A stretch of 64,000 bases of DNA from a candidate division WOR-3 bacterium (GTDB lineage Bacteria > Hydrothermota > UBA3072). Of the stretch, positions 5,628 to 17,483 are shown piece after piece (within the stretch, counting starts at the first letter, position 1; every line of letters starts with the position of its first letter). Made by a program: the position numbers and the translations under genes. A model generated the notes under the pieces. It was not told the DNA's origin and ran no database searches. It worked only from the letters and a program-made list of their open reading frames with translations. Location of the stretch: assembly GCA_039804165.1 (NCBI GenBank), contig JBDRZZ010000005.1, positions 1 through 64,000 of the forward strand, written 5' to 3'.

Positions 5628-5672
5628 TAAATCCTAAACTCGAAATCCTAAATCCTGATTCCCGATTTCCCA
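5628..5672. repeat. Degenerate tandem AAATCCTAAACTCG-type repeat
   Basis: The stretch reads as imperfect copies of AAATCC(T/C) alternating with CTAAACTCG and CTGATTCCCG. It looks like a decaying dispersed intergenic repeat rather than coding sequence. Related text (TTTCGGGTTTCGAGTTGTGAG, split here only by a few changes) lies at 5503-5525. Confidence 0.45.
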
Positions 5673-5682
5673 TTTTTATTCC

Positions 5683-5782
5683 TTTTGCAAAGATAAATCT
5701 TTGCCCGCCAGTTGATTTTGCAAAGCCTTTTGGTTTGCCCTACATTTCTTATCTTTTTTGCAAGGCTTTTGCCTTGCCCTAC
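5683..5782. repeat. Array of three 27-28-base hairpin units
   Basis: Unit 1 (5683-5709), unit 2 (5716-5743) and unit 3 (5756-5782) each have the form TTTTGCAA(A/G)G, a short loop, then (C/T)TTTGCC or CCTTGCC and a C(G/T)(C/A)C tail. Unit 1 contains GCAAAGAT-AA-ATCTTTGC (8-bp arms) and unit 3 GCAAGGC-TTTT-GCCTTGC (7-bp arms); unit 2 has one bulged base. Spacers are 6 and 12 bases. This is REP/MITE-like architecture. Confidence 0.65.
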
Positions 5783-5820
5783 GGTTAATTTTTCCATTTA
5801 TAGAAAATTATATGGAAAAA

Positions 5821-5876
5821 TAATGCAATTTTTGTCAAGGGGAAAATATTGCATTAAAATTTTTTTTTATTATATT
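5821..5876 (+). promoter_or_regulatory. Probable fba promoter with a 9-bp inverted repeat
   Basis: TTGCAT (5849-5854) and TATATT (5871-5876) are 16 bases apart, a reasonable sigma-70-type pair. TAATGCAAT (5821-5829) and its exact inverse ATTGCATTA (5848-5856) overlap the -35 box, which would suit a dimeric regulator. AGGAGG at 5895-5900 precedes the ATG at 5909. The promoter call is by eye. Confidence 0.45.
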
Positions 5877-5908
5877 AAAAAACAAAGATAGAAAAGGAGG
5901 TTCTTTTT

Positions 5909-6916
5909 ATGATTTCATATAAAGAATTGGGTTTTGTGAATACTCGTGAGATGTTAAAAAAGGCTCTAGAAGGAGGTTATGCTGTTCCTGCTTATAATTT
6001 TAATAATATGGAACAACTCCAAGCAATTATTACAGCTTGTGTGGAAACTCAGTCTCCCGTGATTTTACAGGTTTCAAAAGGTGCGAGAAAATACGCAAAT
6101 CAAACCCTTTTGAGATATTTAGGTGAGGGTGCTGTTATGATGATGAAAGAATTGGCAAAAGAAAAGGGGTTAAAGGAAATACCCCTCGCTTTACATCTTG
6201 ACCATGGAGATTCTTATGAACTTTGTGTTTCTGTTATTGAGTCGGGTTTTTCCTCTGTAATGATAGATGGATCTTCCCTTCCTTTTGAGGAGAATGTTGC
6301 GCTTACAAAAAAGGTTGTGGATTTTGCTCATAAATATGATGTTACAGTAGAAGGAGAACTTGGAGTTTTAGCTGGTATAGAAGAAGAAGTCTCTGCAGAG
6401 AAAACCCATTATACAAAACCTGAAGAAGTTGAAGAATTTGTTGAAAGGACAGGGGTTGATTCTCTTGCAATTTCAATAGGAACTTCTCATGGCGCAAACA
6501 AATTTAAGCCTGAACAATGCACAAGGAATGAGGATGGAATATTAATTCCACCTCCTCTTCGTTTTGATATCCTTGAAGAGGTTGAAAGGAGAATTCCGGG
6601 ATTTCCAATAGTTCTTCATGGTTCTTCTTCGGTTCCTGCTGAAGCTGTGAGAATTATTAATGCAAATGGTGGTGAACTTAAAGATGCAATAGGGATTCCA
6701 GAGGAGCAGATAAGAAGAGCTGTAAAATCAGCAGTTTGTAAAGTGAATATTGATTCTGATGGTAGACTTTGGATGACTGCAGCGATAAGAAAATACCTAA
6801 AGGAACATCCTGCTGAATTTGATCCAAGGAAATATTTAGGACCAGCTAGGGAAGCCTTAATAAATATGTATAAACATAAAAACGAAAATGTCTTGGGTTC
6901 AGCAGGAAAAGCTTAA
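5909..6916 (+). CDS. fba: Class II fructose-bisphosphate aldolase
   Basis: This zinc-dependent aldolase splits fructose 1,6-bisphosphate into dihydroxyacetone phosphate and glyceraldehyde 3-phosphate in glycolysis, and does the reverse in gluconeogenesis. Family signatures include AYNFNN near residue 29, HLDHGD at 96-101 with the catalytic Asp and a zinc-binding His, EGELG at 148-152, the SIGTSHG loop and VLHGSSSVP. At 335 residues the length is typical. It has a strong ribosome site and stands alone on the plus strand. Its stop codon overlaps the convergent MetE-like gene by four bases, so no terminator can fit between them. It would process triose and hexose phosphates arising from the glycan operon at 32-44 kb. 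Confidence 0.95.
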   Translation: MISYKELGFVNTREMLKKALEGGYAVPAYNFNNMEQLQAIITACVETQSPVILQVSKGARKYANQTLLRYLGEGAVMMMKELAKEKGLKEIPLALHLDHGDSYELCVSVIESGFSSVMIDGSSLPFEENVALTKKVVDFAHKYDVTVEGELGVLAGIEEEVSAEKTHYTKPEEVEEFVERTGVDSLAISIGTSHGANKFKPEQCTRNEDGILIPPPLRFDILEEVERRIPGFPIVLHGSSSVPAEAVRIINANGGELKDAIGIPEEQIRRAVKSAVCKVNIDSDGRLWMTAAIRKYLKEHPAEFDPRKYLGPAREALINMYKHKNENVLGSAGKA

Positions 6917-8022
6917 GAAATTTTCTTTCTGGCAAGAGCTGCACCTTTTACCATATTTTCAAGCTTTTTAAAGGCTACTTTCCAACTTCTTGTTCTAAGG
7001 CCGCAGTCAGGATTTACATAAATTTGCTCGGGGTCTAATATTTTAGCGGCTTTTAAAATTCTATCTCTTATTAGTTCTGGAGGTTCTATTTTATCGGAAT
7101 GAACATCGAGAACCCCAAGGCCAATCTCTTTATTATCAGAATATTTCTTCATCAGTTTGAGAAAATCATAGTTTTCACTCTGGGCGAATTCAAAGGCGTA
7201 TTGAGAGCAATTTTTTACTTTCAGAATTTCGGGATAAAGAATAGAATAGTCGCTAAAACATATATGGAGAATGAATTTACATTTTTTAATCCCCTCTATT
7301 GAGTTATTTAAACTTTCTACGAATATTCCTATCTCTTCAGGTTCGGTAGTGGCGGCAGGTTCATCTATTTGGATAATTGTAGCCCCTGCTTTAAATAGAG
7401 CGAGAATATTTGGCCGAATTACATTCTTTGCAAGATTTACGGCAAGCTCATAATTTGCTTTATGGAGTGCCTTTTTTCTATTTTTTTCTTTTTTAATCCA
7501 TTTTTTTAGATAATATTCATTAAAAGACCAGTTAGTAAATGTGTAGGCTCCTGTTATTGGAATTTTAACTGGTTTTTTTGTGAGAGTTTTAACATAGTTA
7601 AATTCTTCAAGATGATAAGGGAATTTCAGTTTTGGCTTTCCAATACATGCTGCTTTTTTGTAATATTTGTTGTCAAAACTTCTAACTTCTCCGTAAAACT
7701 TAAAACCTTCAATCTTAGAGATTGGTTCTTGATACATTTCAGTTCTTTGTTGTTCTCCATCATATATAATGTCAAGACCAATCCTTTCAAAACATCTTAC
7801 CACAAGAAGACTGGAGAATTTTTTTAATTCTTCTTTGTCTTTTTCTTCCAAAATTTCTTTATTTATTAGAAATTCTAATTCTTCTTTTCTTTCAATTTGA
7901 GAAAACTTAATCCAGTGCTGAAGTTCTTCATAATCCTCTTCTTTAAGAGGCAGATTTCTCATTTTTTTTATAAGCCAGTTAGGTCTTGCAATACTACCAA
8001 TTTCTTGAGTAAGGAATTTCAT
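6913..8022 (-). CDS. Short MetE-like (cobalamin-independent type) methionine synthase, catalytic domain only
   Basis: The protein (369 residues) corresponds to the C-terminal catalytic barrel of MetE. All four expected zinc ligands are visible: His253 and Cys255 (LHICFS), Glu278 (FEFAQSE) and Cys340 (NPDCGLRTR), spaced as in E. coli MetE. The substrate region has IIQIDEPAATTEPEE. The N-terminal half of classical MetE is absent, as in archaeal and other core-MetE enzymes, which take methyl groups from corrinoid carriers rather than from polyglutamyl methylfolate. It lies ten bases behind a second MetE-like gene and next to a homocysteine methyltransferase-MTHFR fusion. It is therefore very likely the final homocysteine methylation step; the methyl donor is not evident. 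Confidence 0.8.
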   Translation of the reverse strand: MKFLTQEIGSIARPNWLIKKMRNLPLKEEDYEELQHWIKFSQIERKEELEFLINKEILEEKDKEELKKFSSLLVVRCFERIGLDIIYDGEQQRTEMYQEPISKIEGFKFYGEVRSFDNKYYKKAACIGKPKLKFPYHLEEFNYVKTLTKKPVKIPITGAYTFTNWSFNEYYLKKWIKKEKNRKKALHKANYELAVNLAKNVIRPNILALFKAGATIIQIDEPAATTEPEEIGIFVESLNNSIEGIKKCKFILHICFSDYSILYPEILKVKNCSQYAFEFAQSENYDFLKLMKKYSDNKEIGLGVLDVHSDKIEPPELIRDRILKAAKILDPEQIYVNPDCGLRTRSWKVAFKKLENMVKGAALARKKIS

Positions 8023-8031
8023 AATCTCTCC

Positions 8032-8940
8032 TTAAGAGAAAGCCTCTGCAATTCTTCTTAATACCTCAAGTTTACTAATCGCTATCTCATAGGGTAAGAA
8101 TTCTAAACTCATATTTGGACATATAAAAAATTTTTCTATCTTAAATTTTGAGATAACTTTTTCTACAAATTTTTTTGTTTGAAGTTCTTCTTCAATAAGA
8201 GAGATTTGAGCATCAATACACCCTATTCCTATTCTTTTTTCCATTCTTAAGTTGAGATTTTCAATAGAAGTAGATAAAAAATCTATAATAATAGAGTTTA
8301 CAGGTAAGAAAAGCAATTCTTGAAGGTGAGAAAAATCTCCCCACGGAATGTGGAGGGTAGTTTCTATTTTAAGGTTTTTCGTTAAGAGGGTATAGCATTC
8401 CTTCCATAAGGGATCGAATTTTAAAAAGGCAATTGAAGGTTCTGAAAATTGGATGCAACTTACTCCCTTTTTTTCGAGATATTCAGAAACATCTCTAATG
8501 ACTTCTGTAATCATAAATAAAGTGTCTTTTTTGTAAAAGTCTTCACTCAAATAAAAAAAACTGATGGGTCCTGGGATAATAACTTTTCTTCTTTCTGGGA
8601 TTAGAAATCCATAAAAGAAATTTTCTATCTCCTCAGGATTAAATTTAATTTTTCCTTTTATTAAAGGTTTTCTATAAAACGTATTTGTTCTGAAAAACCT
8701 TGTTAACGCTCCACATTCAATTCCATTTGCTTTTACAAAAGGTCTTAAAAGATCCTGCCATAGGAGATTGCCATCAGTTATATATTCAAAGTCTTTTTGA
8801 TAATCAATAAGTTTTCTCACATCTTTTTCTCTAATCTGTTCAAGTTCTTCTTTATCCAACCTTCCTCTATCATAGTCTCTTGTTGCTTTAATAAGCTCTG
8901 GTGAACGGGGGAAAAATCCTGTAAGTTCGGCTATAAGCAT
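8032..8940 (-). CDS. Divergent MetE-like barrel protein, incomplete zinc site
   Basis: A 302-residue protein of the MetE/UROD barrel superfamily. It aligns with the neighbour by its middle and end (VIIPGPISFFY, IQFSEPSIAFL, LHIPWGDFS, GIGCIDAQ, FFICPNMSLEFLPYE). The zinc site is partly lost: His197 is present and Cys274 fits the last ligand, but the H-x-C Cys is Pro199, and the Glu position may be Asp220. It sits between the fusion gene (9 bases) and the first MetE-like gene (9 bases), so the three are surely co-translated. It could be a second methyltransferase, a subunit that presents the methyl donor, or a regulatory paralogue. I cannot choose between these from sequence. Confidence 0.65.
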   Translation of the reverse strand: MLIAELTGFFPRSPELIKATRDYDRGRLDKEELEQIREKDVRKLIDYQKDFEYITDGNLLWQDLLRPFVKANGIECGALTRFFRTNTFYRKPLIKGKIKFNPEEIENFFYGFLIPERRKVIIPGPISFFYLSEDFYKKDTLFMITEVIRDVSEYLEKKGVSCIQFSEPSIAFLKFDPLWKECYTLLTKNLKIETTLHIPWGDFSHLQELLFLPVNSIIIDFLSTSIENLNLRMEKRIGIGCIDAQISLIEEELQTKKFVEKVISKFKIEKFFICPNMSLEFLPYEIAISKLEVLRRIAEAFS

Positions 8941-8949
8941 TTGTTTCCT

Positions 8950-10725
8950 CTATAAGTCTAATAAATTTTTTAAGAGTTCAATTTTCTTCTTTGGAAGCAT
9001 TAAACACACTCCATTTGTAATTTCTTTTAAATTTCTTATAATTTCCTTTGCTATTTTTATTCCTTCTTTATCCGCTCTTTTTCTAATTTCCATTGGGATA
9101 CTTATTCCTGGAACTTCATTATGGAGATATTCTGCTTGTGTAGAGTTTAAAAGGGGCATAACCCCTGCAAATATTGGAATGGATAATTTTTTTACTTCTT
9201 CTGCAAGAGGAATAAATTTTTCTAAATCAAATACAGGTTGTGTAATAAAAAATTCTGCACCGAGTTCTATTTTTGAATTCATTCTTGAAATTTCTATGTT
9301 ATTTAATTCTACGCCTAAGGCTGCCCCAACCCATAAATTCGTTGGAGATTCAAGAGGATTCCCAAATATATCTTTTCCTGAGTTTAAGGTTTTAATAATT
9401 CGAATGAGTTCTTTTGATGTTAATTCCTGGGGAGAAGATAAAATAGGAATTTCTATAGTTGGAGTATCTCCTGTTAATGCTAAAATATTTTCTATTCCAA
9501 GAGCGGAAATAGATAGACACTCAGATTGTAATCCAAGAATGCTTTTGTCTCGGGTTGTTTTATGTAGAATGACCTCAAGGGATGTTTCTTCTTTTATTCT
9601 ATGGGCTAAAGCGAGTGGGTCCATTCTAACTTTTCCCATTGGACTATCCGAAATAGAAACAGCTGTAATTCCTATTCTTTCTAATTCTTTGGCGATTTTT
9701 ATCTCTTCGTCTAAGATTGTCCCTCTTGGGGGTTCTAATTCTACAATTAAAATAAATTCCCTTTTTGTTTTTTCTTTAAGAGTTGTTGTTACAACCTTTG
9801 GTTTATAGACCTCTTTTGTTTGAAGCCTCCCATTAAAGGAAATTTTTTTTCTAACAACTTTTTCTCCTTTTAGGTTTTCAGCAAGCATTTTTATGTGTTG
9901 GGGTGTTGTCCCACAACACCCACCAATTATTGATACTCCAATAGAGATTAACTTCTTAGCGTAATGGAGGAAATATTCTGGATTGTATGGATAAATGAAT
10001 TTTCTATCTATAAATCTTGGTAGTCCTGCATTTGGCATTGCGGATAACCATTTTGGTTCGACGAGTAGAAATTTCTTTGTGGAAGAAAAACTTTCTTGAG
10101 GACCAGAGCCACAATTTACACCCATAATTTCTACATCTTCTTTTTTAAGAAAGTTAGCAATATCTTCTGGATCAAAACCTTTTAAAGTTCTCCCTTCATT
10201 TGAAAAGGAAAAGGAAACGATGAAAGGAGAATTTTCTTTCCTTACCGCATTTATGGCTGCTTTAGCCTCTTCTATATCTGACATTGTTTCTATGATTATT
10301 AAGTCAACCCCTCCTTCGAGAAGAGAAGTAATTTGTTCGGAGAAAATCTCTTCGATTTGAGAAAAAGGAACTTCTTCTTTTCCGTTGAGCAATCTTGTTA
10401 TTGGTCCAACAGAACCAGCCACAAAGGCTCCTTTTCCTGCCTCTTTTGCAATTTTTGCTCCTTTATAATTAATTTCTTTAGTCTTTTTTCCAAGACCATA
10501 ATAGAGGTCTAAAACTAAGCGATTTGCTCCAAAGGTGTTGGTTTCAATGATTTCTGCTCCAGCTTCGCGGAAAGCTCGATGAACCTCTTGAACGATATTA
10601 GGCTCAGAGATGTTAAGTTCTTCGAAACATCTACCTTTTGGAATACCAAGAGAATAAAGAGAGGTTCCCATTGCTCCATCAGCTATAATAACTTTTTCCT
10701 CTTCTAAAGTTTCTAAAAAATTCAA
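8950..10725 (-). CDS. Homocysteine S-methyltransferase / methylenetetrahydrofolate reductase fusion
   Basis: This 591-residue bifunctional protein has the architecture of Bacillus YitJ. Residues 1-290 are a homocysteine methyltransferase domain with DGAMGTSL, ETNTFGAN, and the zinc thiolate motifs GVNCGSGP and GGCCGTTP. From about residue 320 comes an FAD-dependent MTHFR barrel (VELEPPRGTILDEE, LALTGDTP, FFITQPVFD). MTHFR makes 5-methyl-tetrahydrofolate and the first domain can move a methyl group to homocysteine. No cobalamin-binding domain is present, unlike MetH. Two MetE-like genes follow at once, so the cluster is a dedicated methionine module. Confidence 0.88.
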   Translation of the reverse strand: MNFLETLEEEKVIIADGAMGTSLYSLGIPKGRCFEELNISEPNIVQEVHRAFREAGAEIIETNTFGANRLVLDLYYGLGKKTKEINYKGAKIAKEAGKGAFVAGSVGPITRLLNGKEEVPFSQIEEIFSEQITSLLEGGVDLIIIETMSDIEEAKAAINAVRKENSPFIVSFSFSNEGRTLKGFDPEDIANFLKKEDVEIMGVNCGSGPQESFSSTKKFLLVEPKWLSAMPNAGLPRFIDRKFIYPYNPEYFLHYAKKLISIGVSIIGGCCGTTPQHIKMLAENLKGEKVVRKKISFNGRLQTKEVYKPKVVTTTLKEKTKREFILIVELEPPRGTILDEEIKIAKELERIGITAVSISDSPMGKVRMDPLALAHRIKEETSLEVILHKTTRDKSILGLQSECLSISALGIENILALTGDTPTIEIPILSSPQELTSKELIRIIKTLNSGKDIFGNPLESPTNLWVGAALGVELNNIEISRMNSKIELGAEFFITQPVFDLEKFIPLAEEVKKLSIPIFAGVMPLLNSTQAEYLHNEVPGISIPMEIRKRADKEGIKIAKEIIRNLKEITNGVCLMLPKKKIELLKNLLDL

Positions 10726-10794: not shown

Positions 10795-13101
10795 TTACTT
10801 CATAAGAAGAAGAATTTCTTCAAGGATTGAGATAGTTGCAATTTTATCAAGAGGTTCATTTTCATTTCCGCATTTAGGCGAAAAGATGCAAGATGGGCAT
10901 CCATTTTCACATGGACAATTTCTTACAAGCTCATAGGTCATTTTTACTATTTCTCTAATTAAATCAAAAGCTTTTTCTACTAAGCCTATCCCACCTTCAA
11001 AACCATCATAAATGAAAATTGTGGGTTGGATTGTGTCAGGATGGAAAGGAGTAGAAACGCCTCCAATGTCCCATCTGTCACACATAACATAAAATGGAAT
11101 TACCCCGATCATTGCATGTTCAGCCCCATGAAGACCTCCCATAAAGCACTCTAAAACATTCTCCGAATTCTTTTTTATTTTTTTATCTTCTTTTCTTTTT
11201 TTCCATATTTTCTCTTGAATTTCAGGAAGAGAGAACCAAAGACTTAATGTTTTAAATTCAAGAGGTGGTAAGTCAAGCTCTTCTTTTCCTATTACCTTAT
11301 CGTATTTCATTATTTTATATTCAGTGTATTGCTCTTTCACATTTACTCTTCCTAAACATACAGAAAAGCTCCCAATTTCCTTTTTCTTGATTTCTTCTAA
11401 TATTTTTATTTCTACATTTTTTAATGCTTCTGTATGATAATCGACCTCTTTTTTCTCTACCTGGACTATACCTTTCTCTAAATCTAATTTTTCAACAATG
11501 TAAGTTTCTCCTTGGTGAAGGAAAACAGCTCCTTTATGAGCTTCTCTAAAGGCTTGTAATCTATCCATTGTTTCAATTACTTTTCCGTTAGAGATAACTT
11601 TAAAAATTGAAGAAGAAATATTATCAAGGCTAACACCTAAAGTAGCTCTTGTTTTGCCTATATAAACCCATCCATTTTTTGTTTTTTCTACTAGGCCTTC
11701 TTTTCTCAGAGCTTCTAAAAATTCTCTGGTTTTTTTGCCAAAATAGAGTTCATCTTCTGGCAGTTTAATAGGTAATTCTGAGGCAGCACAGAGAAGATGT
11801 CCAGAAACTATGTATGGATTTGATAAATCAATTATTGCATTTTCGTGAGATTTCTCAAAGAAAATTTTTGGGTGTTTCATAAAATATTGATCCAAAGGAT
11901 TCTGGAAGGCAATAAGAACTGCAATTGAGTCCCTATTTCCTCTTCCTGCTCTACCTATTTGTTGCCAAGTTGAGATGATTGTTCCTGGATAACCTGATAT
12001 AATTACACTATCTAAAGAACCAATGTCTATTCCTAATTCTAACGCGTTTGTTGAAGTAATACCTTTTAATATGCCATTTTTTAAATTATTCTCTATCTCC
12101 CTTCTTTCAGAAGGAAGATAACCGGCTCTATAGGAAGTTATTTTACTGATCAAGTTGGGTTCTTTTTCCTTTAATTCCTCTTTTGCCCATAAAATGATTA
12201 GTTCAGCCATTTTTCTTGAGGAGGTAAAACAAAGGGTCTGAAGATTGTTTTTTACAAAAAGTAATAATAAATCTTTTGCTTCTTGATGGGTAGAGAACTC
12301 TCCAGCTCCATCATAATAAGGATTATAAAAAATAAAATATTTTTTCCCTTTTGGGGAGCCATCTTTATTTATGAGAGTAAATTCAAGACCTACTAATTTA
12401 TTGGCAAATTCAAGAGGATTGGCAATTGTAGCTGTAGAGATTACAAATTGAGGATTTGAGCCATAGAAATTACAAATTCTTTTTAACCTTCTTATTAAAA
12501 AGGCAACATTTGATCCAAAAACACCTCTATATCGGTGAGCTTCATCCAGGACAATAAATTTTAAGTTACTAAGGAAATTTTCCCACTTGTAATGCCAGGG
12601 TAAAGTTTGGTGGAATTCGTAGGGATTGCTTATTATTATTCTTGAACTTTCTCTAATTTTTCCTCTCTTACTAGAAGGAGTGTCTCCATCGTATATTGCA
12701 GGGTTTACCGATATTCCGGAGAGATTTTCAAACTCTTTTATCACTTTAAGTTGGTCATTAGCAAGAGCTTTTGTAGGATATAAATAAAGAGCAGTTGCAT
12801 TTTTGTCTTGATTGAGTTTTTCAAATATTGGAATTGTAAAAGAAAGTGTTTTTCCAGATGAAGTGGATGTTGTTATTATAACATTTTCCCCTTCAATTAA
12901 GGCTTCTATTGCTTCACACTGATGGTTATAAAGCTTAATTTTCTTTTTGTTAAGATAATTATTTATTTTTGTAGAAAAAGCCTTCTTTACTTCTCCAAAA
13001 ATGGGATTTTTTTGGGGTAATATTTCAATATGTTCTATTCTTTTTTTGTATCTTGGATTTTCTTTTAGGAATTTTAATACTTTTTCTATAAAGTTTTCCA
13101 T
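10795..13101 (-). CDS. mrfA: MrfA/YprA-type DNA helicase with C-terminal zinc domain
   Basis: A superfamily 2 helicase of 768 residues. The Walker A is TSTSSGKT (78-85), the DEAH box LDEAHRYRG, motif III SATIANP, and motif VI QIGRAGRGN. The end carries a DUF1998-type region with the four-cysteine cluster CPCENGCPSC and SPKCGNE. This is the arrangement of Bacillus subtilis MrfA (YprA), which acts with the exonuclease MrfB in UvrA-independent repair of mitomycin C damage. Here the gene overlaps the start-side neighbour, an MrfB-like nuclease, by 16 bases in the same order. The shared architecture and the partner make this assignment firm at family level; the lesion repaired is inference. Confidence 0.85.
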   Translation of the reverse strand: MENFIEKVLKFLKENPRYKKRIEHIEILPQKNPIFGEVKKAFSTKINNYLNKKKIKLYNHQCEAIEALIEGENVIITTSTSSGKTLSFTIPIFEKLNQDKNATALYLYPTKALANDQLKVIKEFENLSGISVNPAIYDGDTPSSKRGKIRESSRIIISNPYEFHQTLPWHYKWENFLSNLKFIVLDEAHRYRGVFGSNVAFLIRRLKRICNFYGSNPQFVISTATIANPLEFANKLVGLEFTLINKDGSPKGKKYFIFYNPYYDGAGEFSTHQEAKDLLLLFVKNNLQTLCFTSSRKMAELIILWAKEELKEKEPNLISKITSYRAGYLPSERREIENNLKNGILKGITSTNALELGIDIGSLDSVIISGYPGTIISTWQQIGRAGRGNRDSIAVLIAFQNPLDQYFMKHPKIFFEKSHENAIIDLSNPYIVSGHLLCAASELPIKLPEDELYFGKKTREFLEALRKEGLVEKTKNGWVYIGKTRATLGVSLDNISSSIFKVISNGKVIETMDRLQAFREAHKGAVFLHQGETYIVEKLDLEKGIVQVEKKEVDYHTEALKNVEIKILEEIKKKEIGSFSVCLGRVNVKEQYTEYKIMKYDKVIGKEELDLPPLEFKTLSLWFSLPEIQEKIWKKRKEDKKIKKNSENVLECFMGGLHGAEHAMIGVIPFYVMCDRWDIGGVSTPFHPDTIQPTIFIYDGFEGGIGLVEKAFDLIREIVKMTYELVRNCPCENGCPSCIFSPKCGNENEPLDKIATISILEEILLLMK

Positions 13102-14171
13102 TCTTCGTGTAATTTTGAGAAGATTTTGGTAAGAGTTAGAAGGTCCTGCCTATTATGCTCAATTATTGGAATTAATGGACCTGGATTTCTATTTCTTAAG
13201 TATGTGTTATAAAATTCCGGAACAAGAGCACTTGGAACATTTACTTTTCTATTTAGGCCAAGGAGTTTTTTTTCTAATGTTGTTAATCTATAATCCGGAA
13301 GTTTTTCTTTCCAAGCTCTCCTTGTAAAGAAAAGAAGGTCAAAGTGAAGATTATCAAAATTCTTTTTTATTCCATAATATGCAAGGCGCTCTTTTATATA
13401 AGGGATATCAAAGGTTCTTCCATTAAATGAAACTATAGCAGAGTTCTCTTTTAAATTGGTAAGGAAGCTTAAAAGAGCAGCAGGTTCTTCTTTAATCTCG
13501 CGGACAAGATACTGATTTATTAAGGCTTCGTTTCCTTTTACATGTAAAACTCCGTAAAGGATAATAGGCCTTGTAAAAAGCCCCATTGTTTCTACATCTA
13601 AGATAATGAAATTCTCTTTTTCGCAAAAGCAAGAAATTTGGAAATTTAGAGGATGAGAGCTTGGGAATCTTTCCTTAATTGCCTCAATAATCCCCTTTAT
13701 ATTGTTAGTATTAATAAGCTTAAGAAGTCTTTTTGCGCTTTCTCCAAAGCGTGGATGGTTTTTTAAATCTTCCAATGTTTTATAACCTTTATGTTTTAAT
13801 AGATTCTCGTTTTTTTCTCTTATCCCATAGATTAACTTGAAGTTTAGGAGTAAATTCTCTTTTATCTTATTTTGATTAATTATATTCAGGTTCAATTTCT
13901 CTATACTTTTAACAAGGTAACATTTTCCCCTTTCTGTTTCTATTTCTTCTCCTGGGATTACTTCTTCCAGGTTTTTCCCCTTATATTTTTCTACCAACAT
14001 CTGTTTTAATCTTTGTGCATATTTATACTCATAAAAGTTTATCCCGTAGGCAAAGTAAGGAAATTTGAAATCTTCTTCCTTATCAATAATTTCATATTCT
14101 CTCTTATCTAAGATTTCTTTCCATTTTTTCCCTATTTGAGTAAGATCTATTCTTTGGTTTTTTATATTCAT
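13086..14171 (-). CDS. mrfB: MrfB/YprB-type DEDDh exonuclease
   Basis: This 361-residue protein carries an RNase H-like DEDDh exonuclease domain in its second half: Asp192 and Glu194 (LDVETMG), Asp255 (SFNGRTFD), Asp278 (HFDLLFF), and His339 with Asp343 (EHNRQDLLTL). The N-terminal half (1-180) has a helix-hairpin-helix-like stretch (KGYKTLEDLKNHPRFG) that may bind DNA. In B. subtilis the equivalent nuclease is paired with the helicase MrfA. Here its stop overlaps mrfA, so the two proteins are translated together. Its own promoter candidate lies in the divergent gap before the MBL gene. Confidence 0.82.
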   Translation of the reverse strand: MNIKNQRIDLTQIGKKWKEILDKREYEIIDKEEDFKFPYFAYGINFYEYKYAQRLKQMLVEKYKGKNLEEVIPGEEIETERGKCYLVKSIEKLNLNIINQNKIKENLLLNFKLIYGIREKNENLLKHKGYKTLEDLKNHPRFGESAKRLLKLINTNNIKGIIEAIKERFPSSHPLNFQISCFCEKENFIILDVETMGLFTRPIILYGVLHVKGNEALINQYLVREIKEEPAALLSFLTNLKENSAIVSFNGRTFDIPYIKERLAYYGIKKNFDNLHFDLLFFTRRAWKEKLPDYRLTTLEKKLLGLNRKVNVPSALVPEFYNTYLRNRNPGPLIPIIEHNRQDLLTLTKIFSKLHEEWKTL

Positions 14172-14236: not shown

Positions 14237-14264
14237 TTGACAAAATTTTGTGCTCAAATATTCT
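14237..14264 (+). promoter_or_regulatory. Probable promoter of the MBL-GNAT-GT4-PIG-L cassette
   Basis: TTGACA (14237-14242) and TATTCT (14259-14264) are 16 bases apart and lie 23 bases before the ATG at 14288. It runs back to back with the mrfB promoter, so one 117-base gap serves both directions. Confidence 0.5.
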
Positions 14265-14287: not shown

Positions 14288-14830
14288 ATGCGGATAAAAA
14301 TAATAGAAGTTGGTCCATTAAGGACAAATTGTTATATAATAACACAGCAGGGGATAGGAATAATTATAGATCCTGGGGGAGAGGAAGATAAAATAATTAA
14401 AGGGGTGAAAGACTTTAAGATAAAAATGATACTCCTTACTCATAACCACTTTGACCATATAGATGCTTTAGTTCCTGTTGCTAAAGCCACAGGAGCTCTT
14501 ATTGCAATTCATCCTTTAGATTCTATTAATATTTCATTTAGAGAACTCAAGGATGGAGAAAGGCTTTCTTTTGAGAATAGAGATATTTTAGTGATTCATA
14601 CACCAGGGCACACTCCTGGTAGTTGTTGTTTCTATATTAATGGATTTCTTTTTTCGGGAGATACTATATTTGCTGGTGGTTGGGGTAATACAATGTTTCC
14701 GGGAGGGAATGAAGAGGTTCTTTTTGATAGCATTAGAAATAAAATAATGAACTTGCCAGAAGAGACAATTATTTATCCGGGGCATGGAGAAAATACAATT
14801 TTGGGAAAAGAGAAGCCTTTGTACTTTTAA
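14288..14830 (+). CDS. MBL-fold hydrolase, glyoxalase II-like
   Basis: A compact 180-residue metallo-beta-lactamase-fold hydrolase. It has the full two-metal set: THNHFDH (51-57), His108 in HTPGHTPGS, Asp125 in LFSGDT, and His166 in YPGHGE. Proteins of this size with the GHTPGS motif include hydroxyacylglutathione hydrolase relatives and persulfide dioxygenases, which act on thioesters or thiol adducts. It is the first gene of a four-gene coupled cassette (gap of four bases to the next), so its substrate is likely related to whatever the cassette makes. The specific substrate cannot be read from sequence. Confidence 0.85.
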   Translation: MRIKIIEVGPLRTNCYIITQQGIGIIIDPGGEEDKIIKGVKDFKIKMILLTHNHFDHIDALVPVAKATGALIAIHPLDSINISFRELKDGERLSFENRDILVIHTPGHTPGSCCFYINGFLFSGDTIFAGGWGNTMFPGGNEEVLFDSIRNKIMNLPEETIIYPGHGENTILGKEKPLYF

Positions 14831-14834
14831 GAAG

Positions 14835-15767
14835 ATGTTAAGAAGGAATAAGAATCTAAGGATAGAGTGGAAGCCTATCCCAGAGATTGAGGAAGAATGG
14901 AATGGAATTTTTAAACTCACAGAAGAAAAAGCTCCTTTTCTTTCTTTTGGATGGTTTTATTCTTTAAGTAAATATTTATTGAAGAAAGATTTTAATGTTA
15001 TGGTTTTATATGATGAATCTGAAATCGTTGGAATTATTCCAGGAGAAATAAAAAATAGAAAACTTTCATTAATTGGAGACGAGAGAGTGACGGATTTAAA
15101 TGGAATCTTATTTAATCCTAAATATTCAGAAGATGTAATTAATACTTTGTCTTCCTTTATAAAAGAGAAAGAATTAAGATTTGAACTATATCCAATTCTT
15201 CCTGAATCTCCTCTTATGAAGATTTTTCCAAATGAGTCTAAAAAAGAATTAGTTAATATAATTCCAATTTTGAAGCTTCCAAGAAGTTGGGAAGAGTATT
15301 TAGAGAATTTACCTTCAAAAGAGAGACATGAGGTAAGAAGAAAATTAAGGAAAGTAGAAGGGTTAAAGATAAGGAGCCTTAAGGGAGAGGAAATAAAAGA
15401 GTTATTTATAATGATGGAGTCTTTCCCTCAAAAAAGAGAGTTTCTAACTAAAAATATGAAAAAATTTTTTTTAAATCTTGCTTTATACTTGGAAGGGGAA
15501 AAACTCTTAAGATTAAAGGCTTCTTTTTATAAAAGAGAGATTTTAGCGATCTTATTTTGTTTCCAGAGTGAAAATACAATTTATGCTTTTAATTCTGCAT
15601 ATAACACTAAATTTTATAAACTTTCTCCAGGTTTTGTTTCTTTTGCAATGGATATAAAAGAAGCTATTGAAGAAGGATTTACTTATTATAATTTTCTTAG
15701 AGGAGAGGAGAGATTTAAATTTGACCTTGGTGCAAGGAAAACATACACATGGAAAATAAAAAGATGA
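14835..15767 (+). CDS. GNAT/FemAB-like acyltransferase (BioF2/CelD type)
   Basis: The start chosen is ATG 14835, five bases after the MBL stop; an upstream ATG at 14784 would need a 47-base overlap. The 310-residue product has the double-GNAT look of the PF13480-type family: an N-terminal half with APFLSFGWFYSLSKYL and LYDESEIVGIIPG, and a C-terminal half with LKASFYKREILAILFCF, YAFNSAYNTKFY and FLRGEERFKFDLGA. The basic stretch SKERHEVRRKLRKVEG is typical of the family. These enzymes add acyl or aminoacyl groups to sugars, peptides or lipids. The gene overlaps the following glycosyltransferase by four bases (ATGA), so the products should act in one pathway. Confidence 0.75.
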   Translation: MLRRNKNLRIEWKPIPEIEEEWNGIFKLTEEKAPFLSFGWFYSLSKYLLKKDFNVMVLYDESEIVGIIPGEIKNRKLSLIGDERVTDLNGILFNPKYSEDVINTLSSFIKEKELRFELYPILPESPLMKIFPNESKKELVNIIPILKLPRSWEEYLENLPSKERHEVRRKLRKVEGLKIRSLKGEEIKELFIMMESFPQKREFLTKNMKKFFLNLALYLEGEKLLRLKASFYKREILAILFCFQSENTIYAFNSAYNTKFYKLSPGFVSFAMDIKEAIEEGFTYYNFLRGEERFKFDLGARKTYTWKIKR

Positions 15768-16852
15768 GAATCTGCGTTATTTCATATCACTCGTCACTTC
15801 TTCATCCTGTGGGAGAGGGATTCACTGGGGGAATGGATATTTATCTTTCCAATTTATATAGAAGGTTAAGTAAGGATTTAGAGGTGGATATTATGTGTAG
15901 GGGAGAGGGAAATAGAAGGAAAATTGAAAATTGTAATTTAATATATATTAACTCTATAAAACCAGAGGATTTTTCAGAAAAAATCATTCATTTTTTGAGT
16001 AAGAAAAGATACCACCTCATTCACTCCCATTACTGGCTTTCTGGAATTGTTGCCATGAAAATAAAAGAGCTATTCCCTTTTATTCCCTGGGTTCATACTT
16101 TTCATACAATTGAAGCTTTAAAGGGAATTTCAAAGGATTCTTTAAGGATGGATATAGAAGAAGAAATAATTAGAAAATGTGATTTGATAATCTCCTCTAC
16201 TTTAAAAGAAAAAAATTGGATAAAAAAGATTTCTCCAAAAGCCTTTGTGGAGGTAATTCTTCCCGGTGTATCTTTTAATGATTTTCCTTTTAAGAAAGAC
16301 GGAAGTAAAAATATCCTCTTTGTGGGAAGATTAGATCCTATAAAAGGAGTTGACATTCTCATTGAATCCCTAAGGTTTTTAAAAGGGGATTTTTCCTTGA
16401 CCATAGTTGGTGGCCCTTCGAAAGATGAATCTTATTTTGAATACTTAAAATCTATAGCGCAAAATTATCCCGTGAGATTTTTAGGAAGAATTCCTCACGA
16501 AAAGCTATATAAGATTTATTGGGAGTCTTGTATGTTGGTTCTCCCTTCTTATTATGAGTCTTTTGGTCTTGTAGTTTTAGAGGCAATGAGCTCTGGAAGA
16601 CCTGTTGTTGGTTTCTCTGATACATCTATTTCTGAAATTTTAGGAAAAAGAGGAGTTCTTACAGAAAGGAAACCCAAAAGCTTAGGAGAGGCTATTAATT
16701 TTCTTCTTTCTAATCCCTCTAAGAGAAGTGAACTTGGTGTAGAGTTAAAAAATAGGGTTTTGAAATTTAGTTGGGAGGAAACTGGAAGGAGGTATATTGA
16801 AGCCTATGAGAAAATTATCAAGAATCACTCTATTGGTAATGGCGCATCCTGA
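15764..16852 (+). CDS. GT4 glycosyltransferase, MshA/BshA-like
   Basis: The start ATG 15764 shares an ATGA overlap with the previous stop; an ATG at 15749 is possible. The enzyme is a retaining GT-B glycosyltransferase. The N-terminal glycine loop FTGGMDIYLSNLY has the GGM-YV form seen in MshA, BshA and sucrose-phosphate synthases. It also has WVHTFHT, FVGRLDPIKGVDIL, and the donor-binding E-x7-E in YYESFGLVVLEAMSSG. MshA and BshA transfer GlcNAc to inositol phosphate or malate as the first step of mycothiol and bacillithiol synthesis, and the next gene here is a deacetylase of the family that acts second. The acceptor is inference. Confidence 0.82.
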   Translation: MRICVISYHSSLLHPVGEGFTGGMDIYLSNLYRRLSKDLEVDIMCRGEGNRRKIENCNLIYINSIKPEDFSEKIIHFLSKKRYHLIHSHYWLSGIVAMKIKELFPFIPWVHTFHTIEALKGISKDSLRMDIEEEIIRKCDLIISSTLKEKNWIKKISPKAFVEVILPGVSFNDFPFKKDGSKNILFVGRLDPIKGVDILIESLRFLKGDFSLTIVGGPSKDESYFEYLKSIAQNYPVRFLGRIPHEKLYKIYWESCMLVLPSYYESFGLVVLEAMSSGRPVVGFSDTSISEILGKRGVLTERKPKSLGEAINFLLSNPSKRSELGVELKNRVLKFSWEETGRRYIEAYEKIIKNHSIGNGAS

Positions 16853-17483
16853 TGATCCTGAGATGAGTTGTGGAGGGAGTGTTGCGAAATGGGTAAAAGA
16901 GGGGGAGGTTTATTATGTTATTGTTTCTGATGGAGGAAAAGGGAGTTGGAATAAAGATGAGAAACCTTATTCTGTATCAAATAAAAGAGAGGAAGAACAA
17001 GAAAGATCAGCTAAATATCTTGGAGTTAAAAGAGTGATATTCTTACAACATCCAGATGGAGAATTGGAAAATATTCCTACCCTAAAAATTGAAATTGCTG
17101 CTCTTATAAGGAAAATAAAACCATATAGAATAGTGACAAACGATCCTTGGGCAAGATTTTTTCATCCTGATCATAGAATTGTAGGACTTGCAGTAATTAG
17201 TGGAATTATGATTGCAAGAGACTGGCATTTTTATCCTTTTTTAAGAGAAATAGGTTTAAATCCCTTTAGACCAGAAAAATTATTACTTACTCCAACAGAT
17301 ACACCTAATCTTATAATGGATATAACAGAAACGATAGAAAAGAAAATAAAAGCTCTTAGATTTCATAAAAGTCAGATAGAAAATCATCCTAAGTGGGAAA
17401 ACAATATTAGAAAATGGGCAAGAGAGATTGCGAAGAATTCTGATTTTGAATATGGAGAGGCTTTTTATGAAATGGATCTTTAA
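16797..17483 (+). CDS. PIG-L/LmbE-family N-acetylglucosaminyl deacetylase
   Basis: A 228-residue zinc deacetylase of the MshB/BshB/PIG-L family. It has AHPDD (16-20) near the start and HPDH (123-126), which supply the His-Asp-His zinc site and catalytic Asp. The usual AHPDDE reads AHPDDPE here, a one-residue insertion. The start is either TTG 16797, four bases after AAGGAGG (16786-16792), or ATG 16806, thirteen bases after it. Either way the gene overlaps the glycosyltransferase end by about 50 bases. The family removes acetyl from GlcNAc-containing small molecules or lipids. It ends two bases from a convergent gene. Confidence 0.85.
   Translation: MKPMRKLSRITLLVMAHPDDPEMSCGGSVAKWVKEGEVYYVIVSDGGKGSWNKDEKPYSVSNKREEEQERSAKYLGVKRVIFLQHPDGELENIPTLKIEIAALIRKIKPYRIVTNDPWARFFHPDHRIVGLAVISGIMIARDWHFYPFLREIGLNPFRPEKLLLTPTDTPNLIMDITETIEKKIKALRFHKSQIENHPKWENNIRKWAREIAKNSDFEYGEAFYEMDL

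Follow-up and report, generated by a model that had tools for sequence, protein, structure and literature searches.

A conserved four-gene cassette in a WOR-3 bacterium and a possible tRNA-dependent route to an aminoacylated glucosamine conjugate

We analyzed a 64,000-nucleotide stretch of DNA, here called the window, from an uncultured candidate division WOR-3 bacterium (assembly GCA_039804165.1, contig JBDRZZ010000005.1, positions 1 to 64,000), in which four plus-strand open reading frames are packed within positions 14288-17483. They encode a metallo-β-lactamase (MBL)-fold hydrolase, an acyltransferase with a double Gcn5-related N-acetyltransferase (GNAT) fold, a family 4 glycosyltransferase (GT4), and a PIG-L deacetylase (Table 1). 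An earlier reading made from the DNA letters alone, the sequence-only reading, had described the genes as abutting or overlapping behind one promoter, and the packing was borne out. The acyltransferase ATG at 14835 lies 4 bases past the MBL stop, the GT4 ATG at 15764 shares a 4-base ATGA overlap with the acyltransferase end, and the PIG-L gene overlaps the GT4 gene by 47-56 bases, depending on whether it starts at TTG 16797 (228 aa) or ATG 16806 (225 aa); we prefer the latter because the start positions of relatives suggest it. A TTGACA-16-TATTCT site does precede the first gene, but promoter-like matches are not commoner in the region than in shuffled sequence (8 versus 12.8), so a single promoter is plausible but unproven. 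All four proteins scored above their Pfam cut-offs (Lactamase_B 99.7 bits, Acetyltransf_6 61.1, Glycos_transf_1 102.2, PIG-L 98.6), as did Glyco_transf_4 in the GT4, while FemAB_like fell below cut-off in the acyltransferase.

Table 1. Features of the cassette locus, in positions of the window
Feature	Position	Strand	Basis
MBL-fold hydrolase, GloB-like, 180 aa	14288..14830	+	Pfam and NCBIfam matches, metal-ligand motifs
Acyltransferase, double-GNAT (Acetyltransf_6), 310 aa	14835..15767	+	Pfam; predicted fold like aminoacyl-tRNA-dependent transferases
GT4 glycosyltransferase, MshA/sucrose-phosphate-synthase-like, 362 aa	15764..16852	+	Family models, tree, predicted structure
PIG-L/LmbE-type deacetylase, 225 aa	16806..17483	+	Pfam; HPDD and distal His motifs invariant
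4-base MBL/acyltransferase junction	14831..14834		Site of extra 193-aa GNAT gene in relatives
Promoter-like site, TTGACA-16-TATTCT	14237..14264	+	Consensus match only; 23 bases 5' of first start

The four genes form a conserved cassette, found together more than chance would allow. The sequence-only reading had proposed a conserved-neighborhood check, and this revealed co-inheritance: in a first comparison set of 61 genomes (the source genome and 60 relatives), the acyltransferase matched strongly, the GT4 at E<=1e-30, and the PIG-L protein closely in the same five genomes and no others, always side by side; the acyltransferase also had three weaker matches outside those five (E 1e-16 to 1e-4). 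Of the five, the four besides the source genome carry an extra gene for a 193-aa GNAT between the MBL and acyltransferase genes (L021:7495-8076, L022:10657-11238, L023:5272-5853, L024:4140-4799), which looks unrelated to the mycothiol synthase MshD. This gene is cleanly absent from the junction in the source cassette, the one place in that genome where it was looked for. A PIG-L-profile scan of named genomes recovered the order MBL–GNAT (193 aa)–acyltransferase–GT4–PIG-L in 15 loci labeled WOR-3, Stahlbacteria or Cloacimonadota. The spread is patchy, with the cassette PIG-L in 21 of 147 host-phylum genomes but not in the one congeneric genome compared. Two cassettes look damaged, by decay or assembly error: in L034 the acyltransferase (5657-5968) is cut to 103 aa and neither MBL nor GNAT was found, and L046:2405-4709 lacks the GT4 and has a shortened GNAT and acyltransferase.

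Among more distant genomes, the same scan detected MBL–acyltransferase–GT4–PIG-L in a deltaproteobacterium (L047), GNAT–acyltransferase–GT4–PIG-L in a Nitrospinaceae genome (L050), and acyltransferase–GT4–PIG-L in a Dehalococcoidia genome (L055); another Chloroflexi genome (L049) has a looser arrangement that includes an MBL. Of 400 Chloroflexota genomes sampled, 156 gave a match to the acyltransferase profile at E<=1e-30. We read 59 of these loci, most of them ranking high among the matches: the GT4 is the next same-strand gene in 37, and a PIG-L gene follows it in 20 of those, so the core of the cassette is the acyltransferase plus the GT4, often with the PIG-L. In five Chloroflexota loci, the acyltransferase–GT4 pair has beside it a double GNAT whose top-scoring model, under its cut-off, is MshD; in four of them this gene borders the GT4 itself. 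There is none in the window. Just upstream of one of the five, the Chloroflexi cassette of L049, lie two DinB/mycothiol-S-transferase-like genes (L049:1234-2563), one of them above the Pfam mycothiol-S-transferase cut-off, and GloB-like hydrolases sit beside distant cassettes. A lower-scoring group of Chloroflexota acyltransferases (L222-L228) has no GT4 and a different conserved neighborhood, beside an ~800-aa family.

Proteins of the GT4, PIG-L and Acetyltransf_6 families are also known from polysaccharide loci, which is what would favor a capsule or surface-polysaccharide cassette. The surroundings speak otherwise. Neighbors, compared by clustering and reading of sequence with only some scanned for families (FolE in L055 was identified otherwise), are for the most part housekeeping genes and vary from one group to the next, in Chloroflexota as in relatives; we saw no recurrent flippase, polymerase or additional glycosyltransferase among them. 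The sequence-only reading had named a capsule locus and a GT4 grouping with polysaccharide enzymes beforehand as contrary evidence, and we saw neither in relatives or Chloroflexota. We therefore rejected a capsule locus from these neighborhoods, and consider this explanation very improbable.

The GT4 belongs with MshA and sucrose-phosphate synthase and keeps the MshA active-site residues. It had been called MshA/BshA-like, and by both family score and structure it is nearer MshA than BshA: MshA is its best NCBIfam model, at 152.5 bits against a cut-off of 462.5 (TIGR03449), and the BshA model reaches 55 of 273.7 bits. Full-length GT4s of the distant cassettes match MshA from end to end at 275-370 bits, below cut-off but more than 170 bits over the next model. 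In a tree of cassette GT4s with actinobacterial MshA and other GT4s of the same genomes, from which sucrose-phosphate synthase was left out, cassette GT4s and MshA formed one group (support 96/92) that takes in one other Arthrobacter GT4 and whose internal order is not resolved. The predicted structure (predicted local distance difference test, pLDDT, 90) matched sucrose-phosphate synthase best (Tll1590; 6kih, Z 43.6), followed by MshA (41.3), BshA (36.5), PimB' (33.9), and PimA (32.0). Unlike sucrose-phosphate synthase, the cassette enzyme has a deacetylase partner, which implies an N-acetyl sugar donor, and its distant-cassette counterparts score far lower with the sucrose-phosphate synthase model (100-126 bits) than with MshA.

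Active-site conservation points to what the GT4 may use as an acceptor. Equivalents of Y110, T134, R154, R231, K236, E316, and E324 of Corynebacterium glutamicum MshA, numbered as in that protein by alignment, are invariant in 57 cassette GT4s. In the MshA structure, Y110, T134, and R154 reportedly hold the acceptor phosphate together with K78. Both R231 and E324 touch UDP, the former reaching the inositol ring as well (PMC2628429). A soluble phosphate ester would be the natural candidate acceptor, probably inositol phosphate. Inositol-1-phosphate synthase (Ino1) is present in the source genome and in 140 of the 147 phylum genomes, a spread that made its co-occurrence with the cassette uninformative as a test of the acceptor.

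The PIG-L protein is, judging from its full set of catalytic motifs, a member of the LmbE/PIG-L deacetylase family. Residues H17, D19, D20, and H126 (the HPDD motif and a distal His, providing metal ligands and general base) are invariant in five aligned copies and correspond to the motifs listed for LmbE-family enzymes (PMC4101496). The MshB/BshB-like deacetylase of the sequence-only reading is supported: the closest family model is BshB1, below cut-off (82.7 of 182.5 bits; BshB2 61.4 of 195.25). The protein's nearest solved proteins include archaeal diacetylchitobiose deacetylases. A second PIG-L gene of the source genome (contig 26; L002:93-1860) overlaps a different glycosyltransferase gene, forming a separate pair.

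A GT4 followed by a PIG-L deacetylase is the logic of both the mycothiol pathway (MshA, MshA2, MshB, MshC, MshD) of Actinobacteria and the bacillithiol pathway (BshA, BshB, BshC), and the cassette shares it, along with an inositol-phosphate synthase in the genome and MshD-like GNATs beside some distant cassettes on the mycothiol side. It differs from both in the third step. The sequence-only reading had noted the lack of a cysteine ligase here, and the genome searches agreed: BshC was detected in none of the five cassette genomes first tested and in only two of 147 host-phylum genomes, both free of the cassette, and MshC gave only below-cut-off matches in the five genomes, the best being sized like an ordinary cysteinyl-tRNA synthetase, with one small extra match in the source genome. 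We therefore rejected the idea that the genome encodes either pathway in full at another locus; a complete bshABC set, named beforehand as contrary evidence, did not turn up. Since these ligases are absent and no protein exceeds the curated cut-offs, the cassette of this non-actinobacterial host is not filed under either pathway, and its gene content suggests that it may work like one of them with a single step replaced. In place of MshC it has a FemX-like double GNAT, and a GloB-like MBL gene joins the operon. The only two phylum genomes with BshC (G012 and G023; L114, L113) are also the only ones with four DinB-type genes each, and look like a small bacillithiol-making minority.

The acyltransferase had been placed at the ligase step as a FemAB/GNAT-type enzyme, and its predicted fold strengthens this idea. 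By sequence it belongs to Acetyltransf_6 only, with weak FemAB_like/FemAB signals in some members, and its profile gave chance-level matches to the sequences of solved structures. The confident model (pLDDT 93.8) shows a double-GNAT fold over the whole chain, for which two aligners gave Staphylococcus aureus FemA, the streptothrisamine aminoacyl transferases Sbb17/Sba18, FemX, and MprF/aaPGS as best matches (Z ~16-19.5, ~255-285 residues), with acyl-CoA enzymes including MshD ranking lower (Z ~12-15). This GNAT-fold group depends on aminoacyl-tRNA, and one member, Orf11, moves glycine from Gly-tRNA onto streptothrisamine; a lysine lies near the substrate, K305 in FemX and K329 in DhpH-C (PMC12945691). 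Together, the structure matches and this review make tRNA-dependent aminoacyl transfer our best guess for the cassette enzyme. Its K295, among 13 invariant positions in 31 cassette proteins, is a candidate counterpart of the reactive K305 of FemX. The likeness to Sbb17/Sba18 and Orf11 would extend to the substrate, an amino-sugar compound for those enzymes and also in the proposed cassette step. Differences are that the cassette enzyme, which is known from sequence and model, is only 11-18% identical to these structures and lies outside peptidoglycan or antibiotic clusters.

The MBL hydrolase carries the THxHxDH motif plus distal His, Asp, and His metal ligands (H52, H54, D56, H57, H108, D125, and H166, invariant in five copies), and family models place it closest to hydroxyacylglutathione hydrolase (GloB). 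It had been said to resemble enzymes acting on thiol adducts; the resemblance held and would suit a thioester hydrolase, but does not prove that activity.

We propose, with about equal weight for and against, that the genes specify a soluble cytosolic route, parallel to that of mycothiol, whose product is an aminoacylated glucosamine conjugate. The GT4 would use UDP-GlcNAc to add N-acetylglucosamine (GlcNAc) to a small phosphorylated acceptor, with inositol phosphate the most likely candidate, and the PIG-L enzyme would strip the N-acetyl group, freeing the glucosamine amine. The FemX-like double GNAT would then load that amine with an amino acid taken from aminoacyl-tRNA, a step that actinobacterial MshC carries out with ATP. 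In relatives only, the 193-aa GNAT may acylate the product as MshD does, and the MBL would hydrolyze a thioester or similar conjugate of it. The amino-sugar conjugate suggested by the sequence-only reading is supported in part, as to the GT4, the deacetylase, the missing ligases, and the acyltransferase at the ligase step, but the chemistry of the product is inferred only.

Several observations weigh against this pathway. None of the four proteins has a known substrate, and every match to a mycothiol or bacillithiol family lies below its curated cut-off. The window GT4 resembles sucrose-phosphate synthase no less than MshA, and its acceptor may therefore be some other phosphate; the loop bearing K78 is deleted in the window and WOR-3-group GT4s, with the lysine kept in the other cassettes displayed; and the near-universal Ino1 means that no link between inositol and the cassette is shown. 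A matching fold need not mean tRNA dependence, and the lipid-aminoacylating MprF matches the acyltransferase model nearly as well as FemX does. Many Chloroflexota acyltransferase–GT4 pairs have no adjoining PIG-L gene, and DinB-type genes occur in just one of the 21 cassette genomes of the host phylum, so a customary marker of thiol use is not tied to the cassette.

Which amino acid is transferred would decide whether the product is a thiol. If it is cysteine, the FemX-like enzyme and Cys-tRNA would replace MshC or BshC in making a mycothiol-like low-molecular-weight thiol, a version we consider less likely than not. The known third-step enzymes are absent, and the acyltransferase chemistry would fall at that very step; MshD-like GNATs, the DinB pair at one locus, and GloB-like MBL proteins near cassettes also favor it. 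Co-occurrence of DinB-type thiol transferases, tried as further support, showed no link in the host phylum and counts against a thiol. We found no description of this cassette, of a tRNA-dependent thiol route or of a Chloroflexota thiol in the open literature searched, which is weak evidence, as subscription journals mostly lay outside it. The same enzyme logic with another amino acid would yield an aminoacyl-amino-sugar solute or streptothricin-like metabolite and no thiol. This possibility, likewise a doubtful one, draws on the closest structural counterparts of the acyltransferase, which use glycine, alanine, lysine and similar amino acids and in Sbb17/Sba18 act on an amino-sugar compound, on the missing DinB link, and on the absence of the second GNAT from the source cassette; it sits less well with the MshD-like GNATs, mycothiol-S-transferase-like gene pair, and GloB-like hydrolases that cluster with distant cassettes.

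A third possibility is a glycolipid, in which the GT4 would form GlcNAc-phosphatidylinositol (GlcNAc-PI), the PIG-L enzyme would convert it to GlcN-PI, and an MprF-like enzyme would aminoacylate the lipid. In its favor, PIG-L owes its name to the deacetylation of GlcNAc-PI, the acyltransferase aligns with MprF/aaPGS domains at Z 16-18, and inositol-phosphate synthase is nearly universal in the phylum. However, the GT4 is structurally nearer MshA and sucrose-phosphate synthase, which act on soluble phosphates (Z 41-44), than the lipid enzymes PimB' or PimA. For all four proteins the only families matched are those of soluble enzymes, and lipid genes are not a recurrent neighbor of the cassette. 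We regard a glycolipid as unlikely.

Not every bacterium can be assigned glutathione, mycothiol, or bacillithiol: many prokaryotes are without an identified low-molecular-weight thiol, and complete msh sets are found only in Actinobacteria (PMC6282198). If the cysteine version of the proposed conjugate pathway is true, it would serve many Chloroflexota, the WOR-3 group, and some other bacteria with no known pathway to such a thiol. Should the product be something other than a thiol, the cassette may instead represent an unrecognized and widespread way of making aminoacyl-amino-sugar metabolites by tapping the tRNA pool. The MshA-like/FemX-like/PIG-L unit, present in a large share of the sampled Chloroflexota and in WOR-3 relatives, offers a concrete gene set for thiol testing.

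Elsewhere in the window, the opposite strand just upstream of the cassette (10795-14171) encodes an MrfA/HRQ1-like helicase (DEAD, MZB) whose gene overlaps that of an RNase_H_2 exonuclease, resembling the MrfAB DNA repair pair. Farther upstream (6913-10725) is a gene for a 591-aa protein that, read from its sequence, appears to be a homocysteine methyltransferase fused to methylenetetrahydrofolate reductase; next to it are two separate methionine-synthase-like genes with Meth_synt domains (369 and 302 aa).

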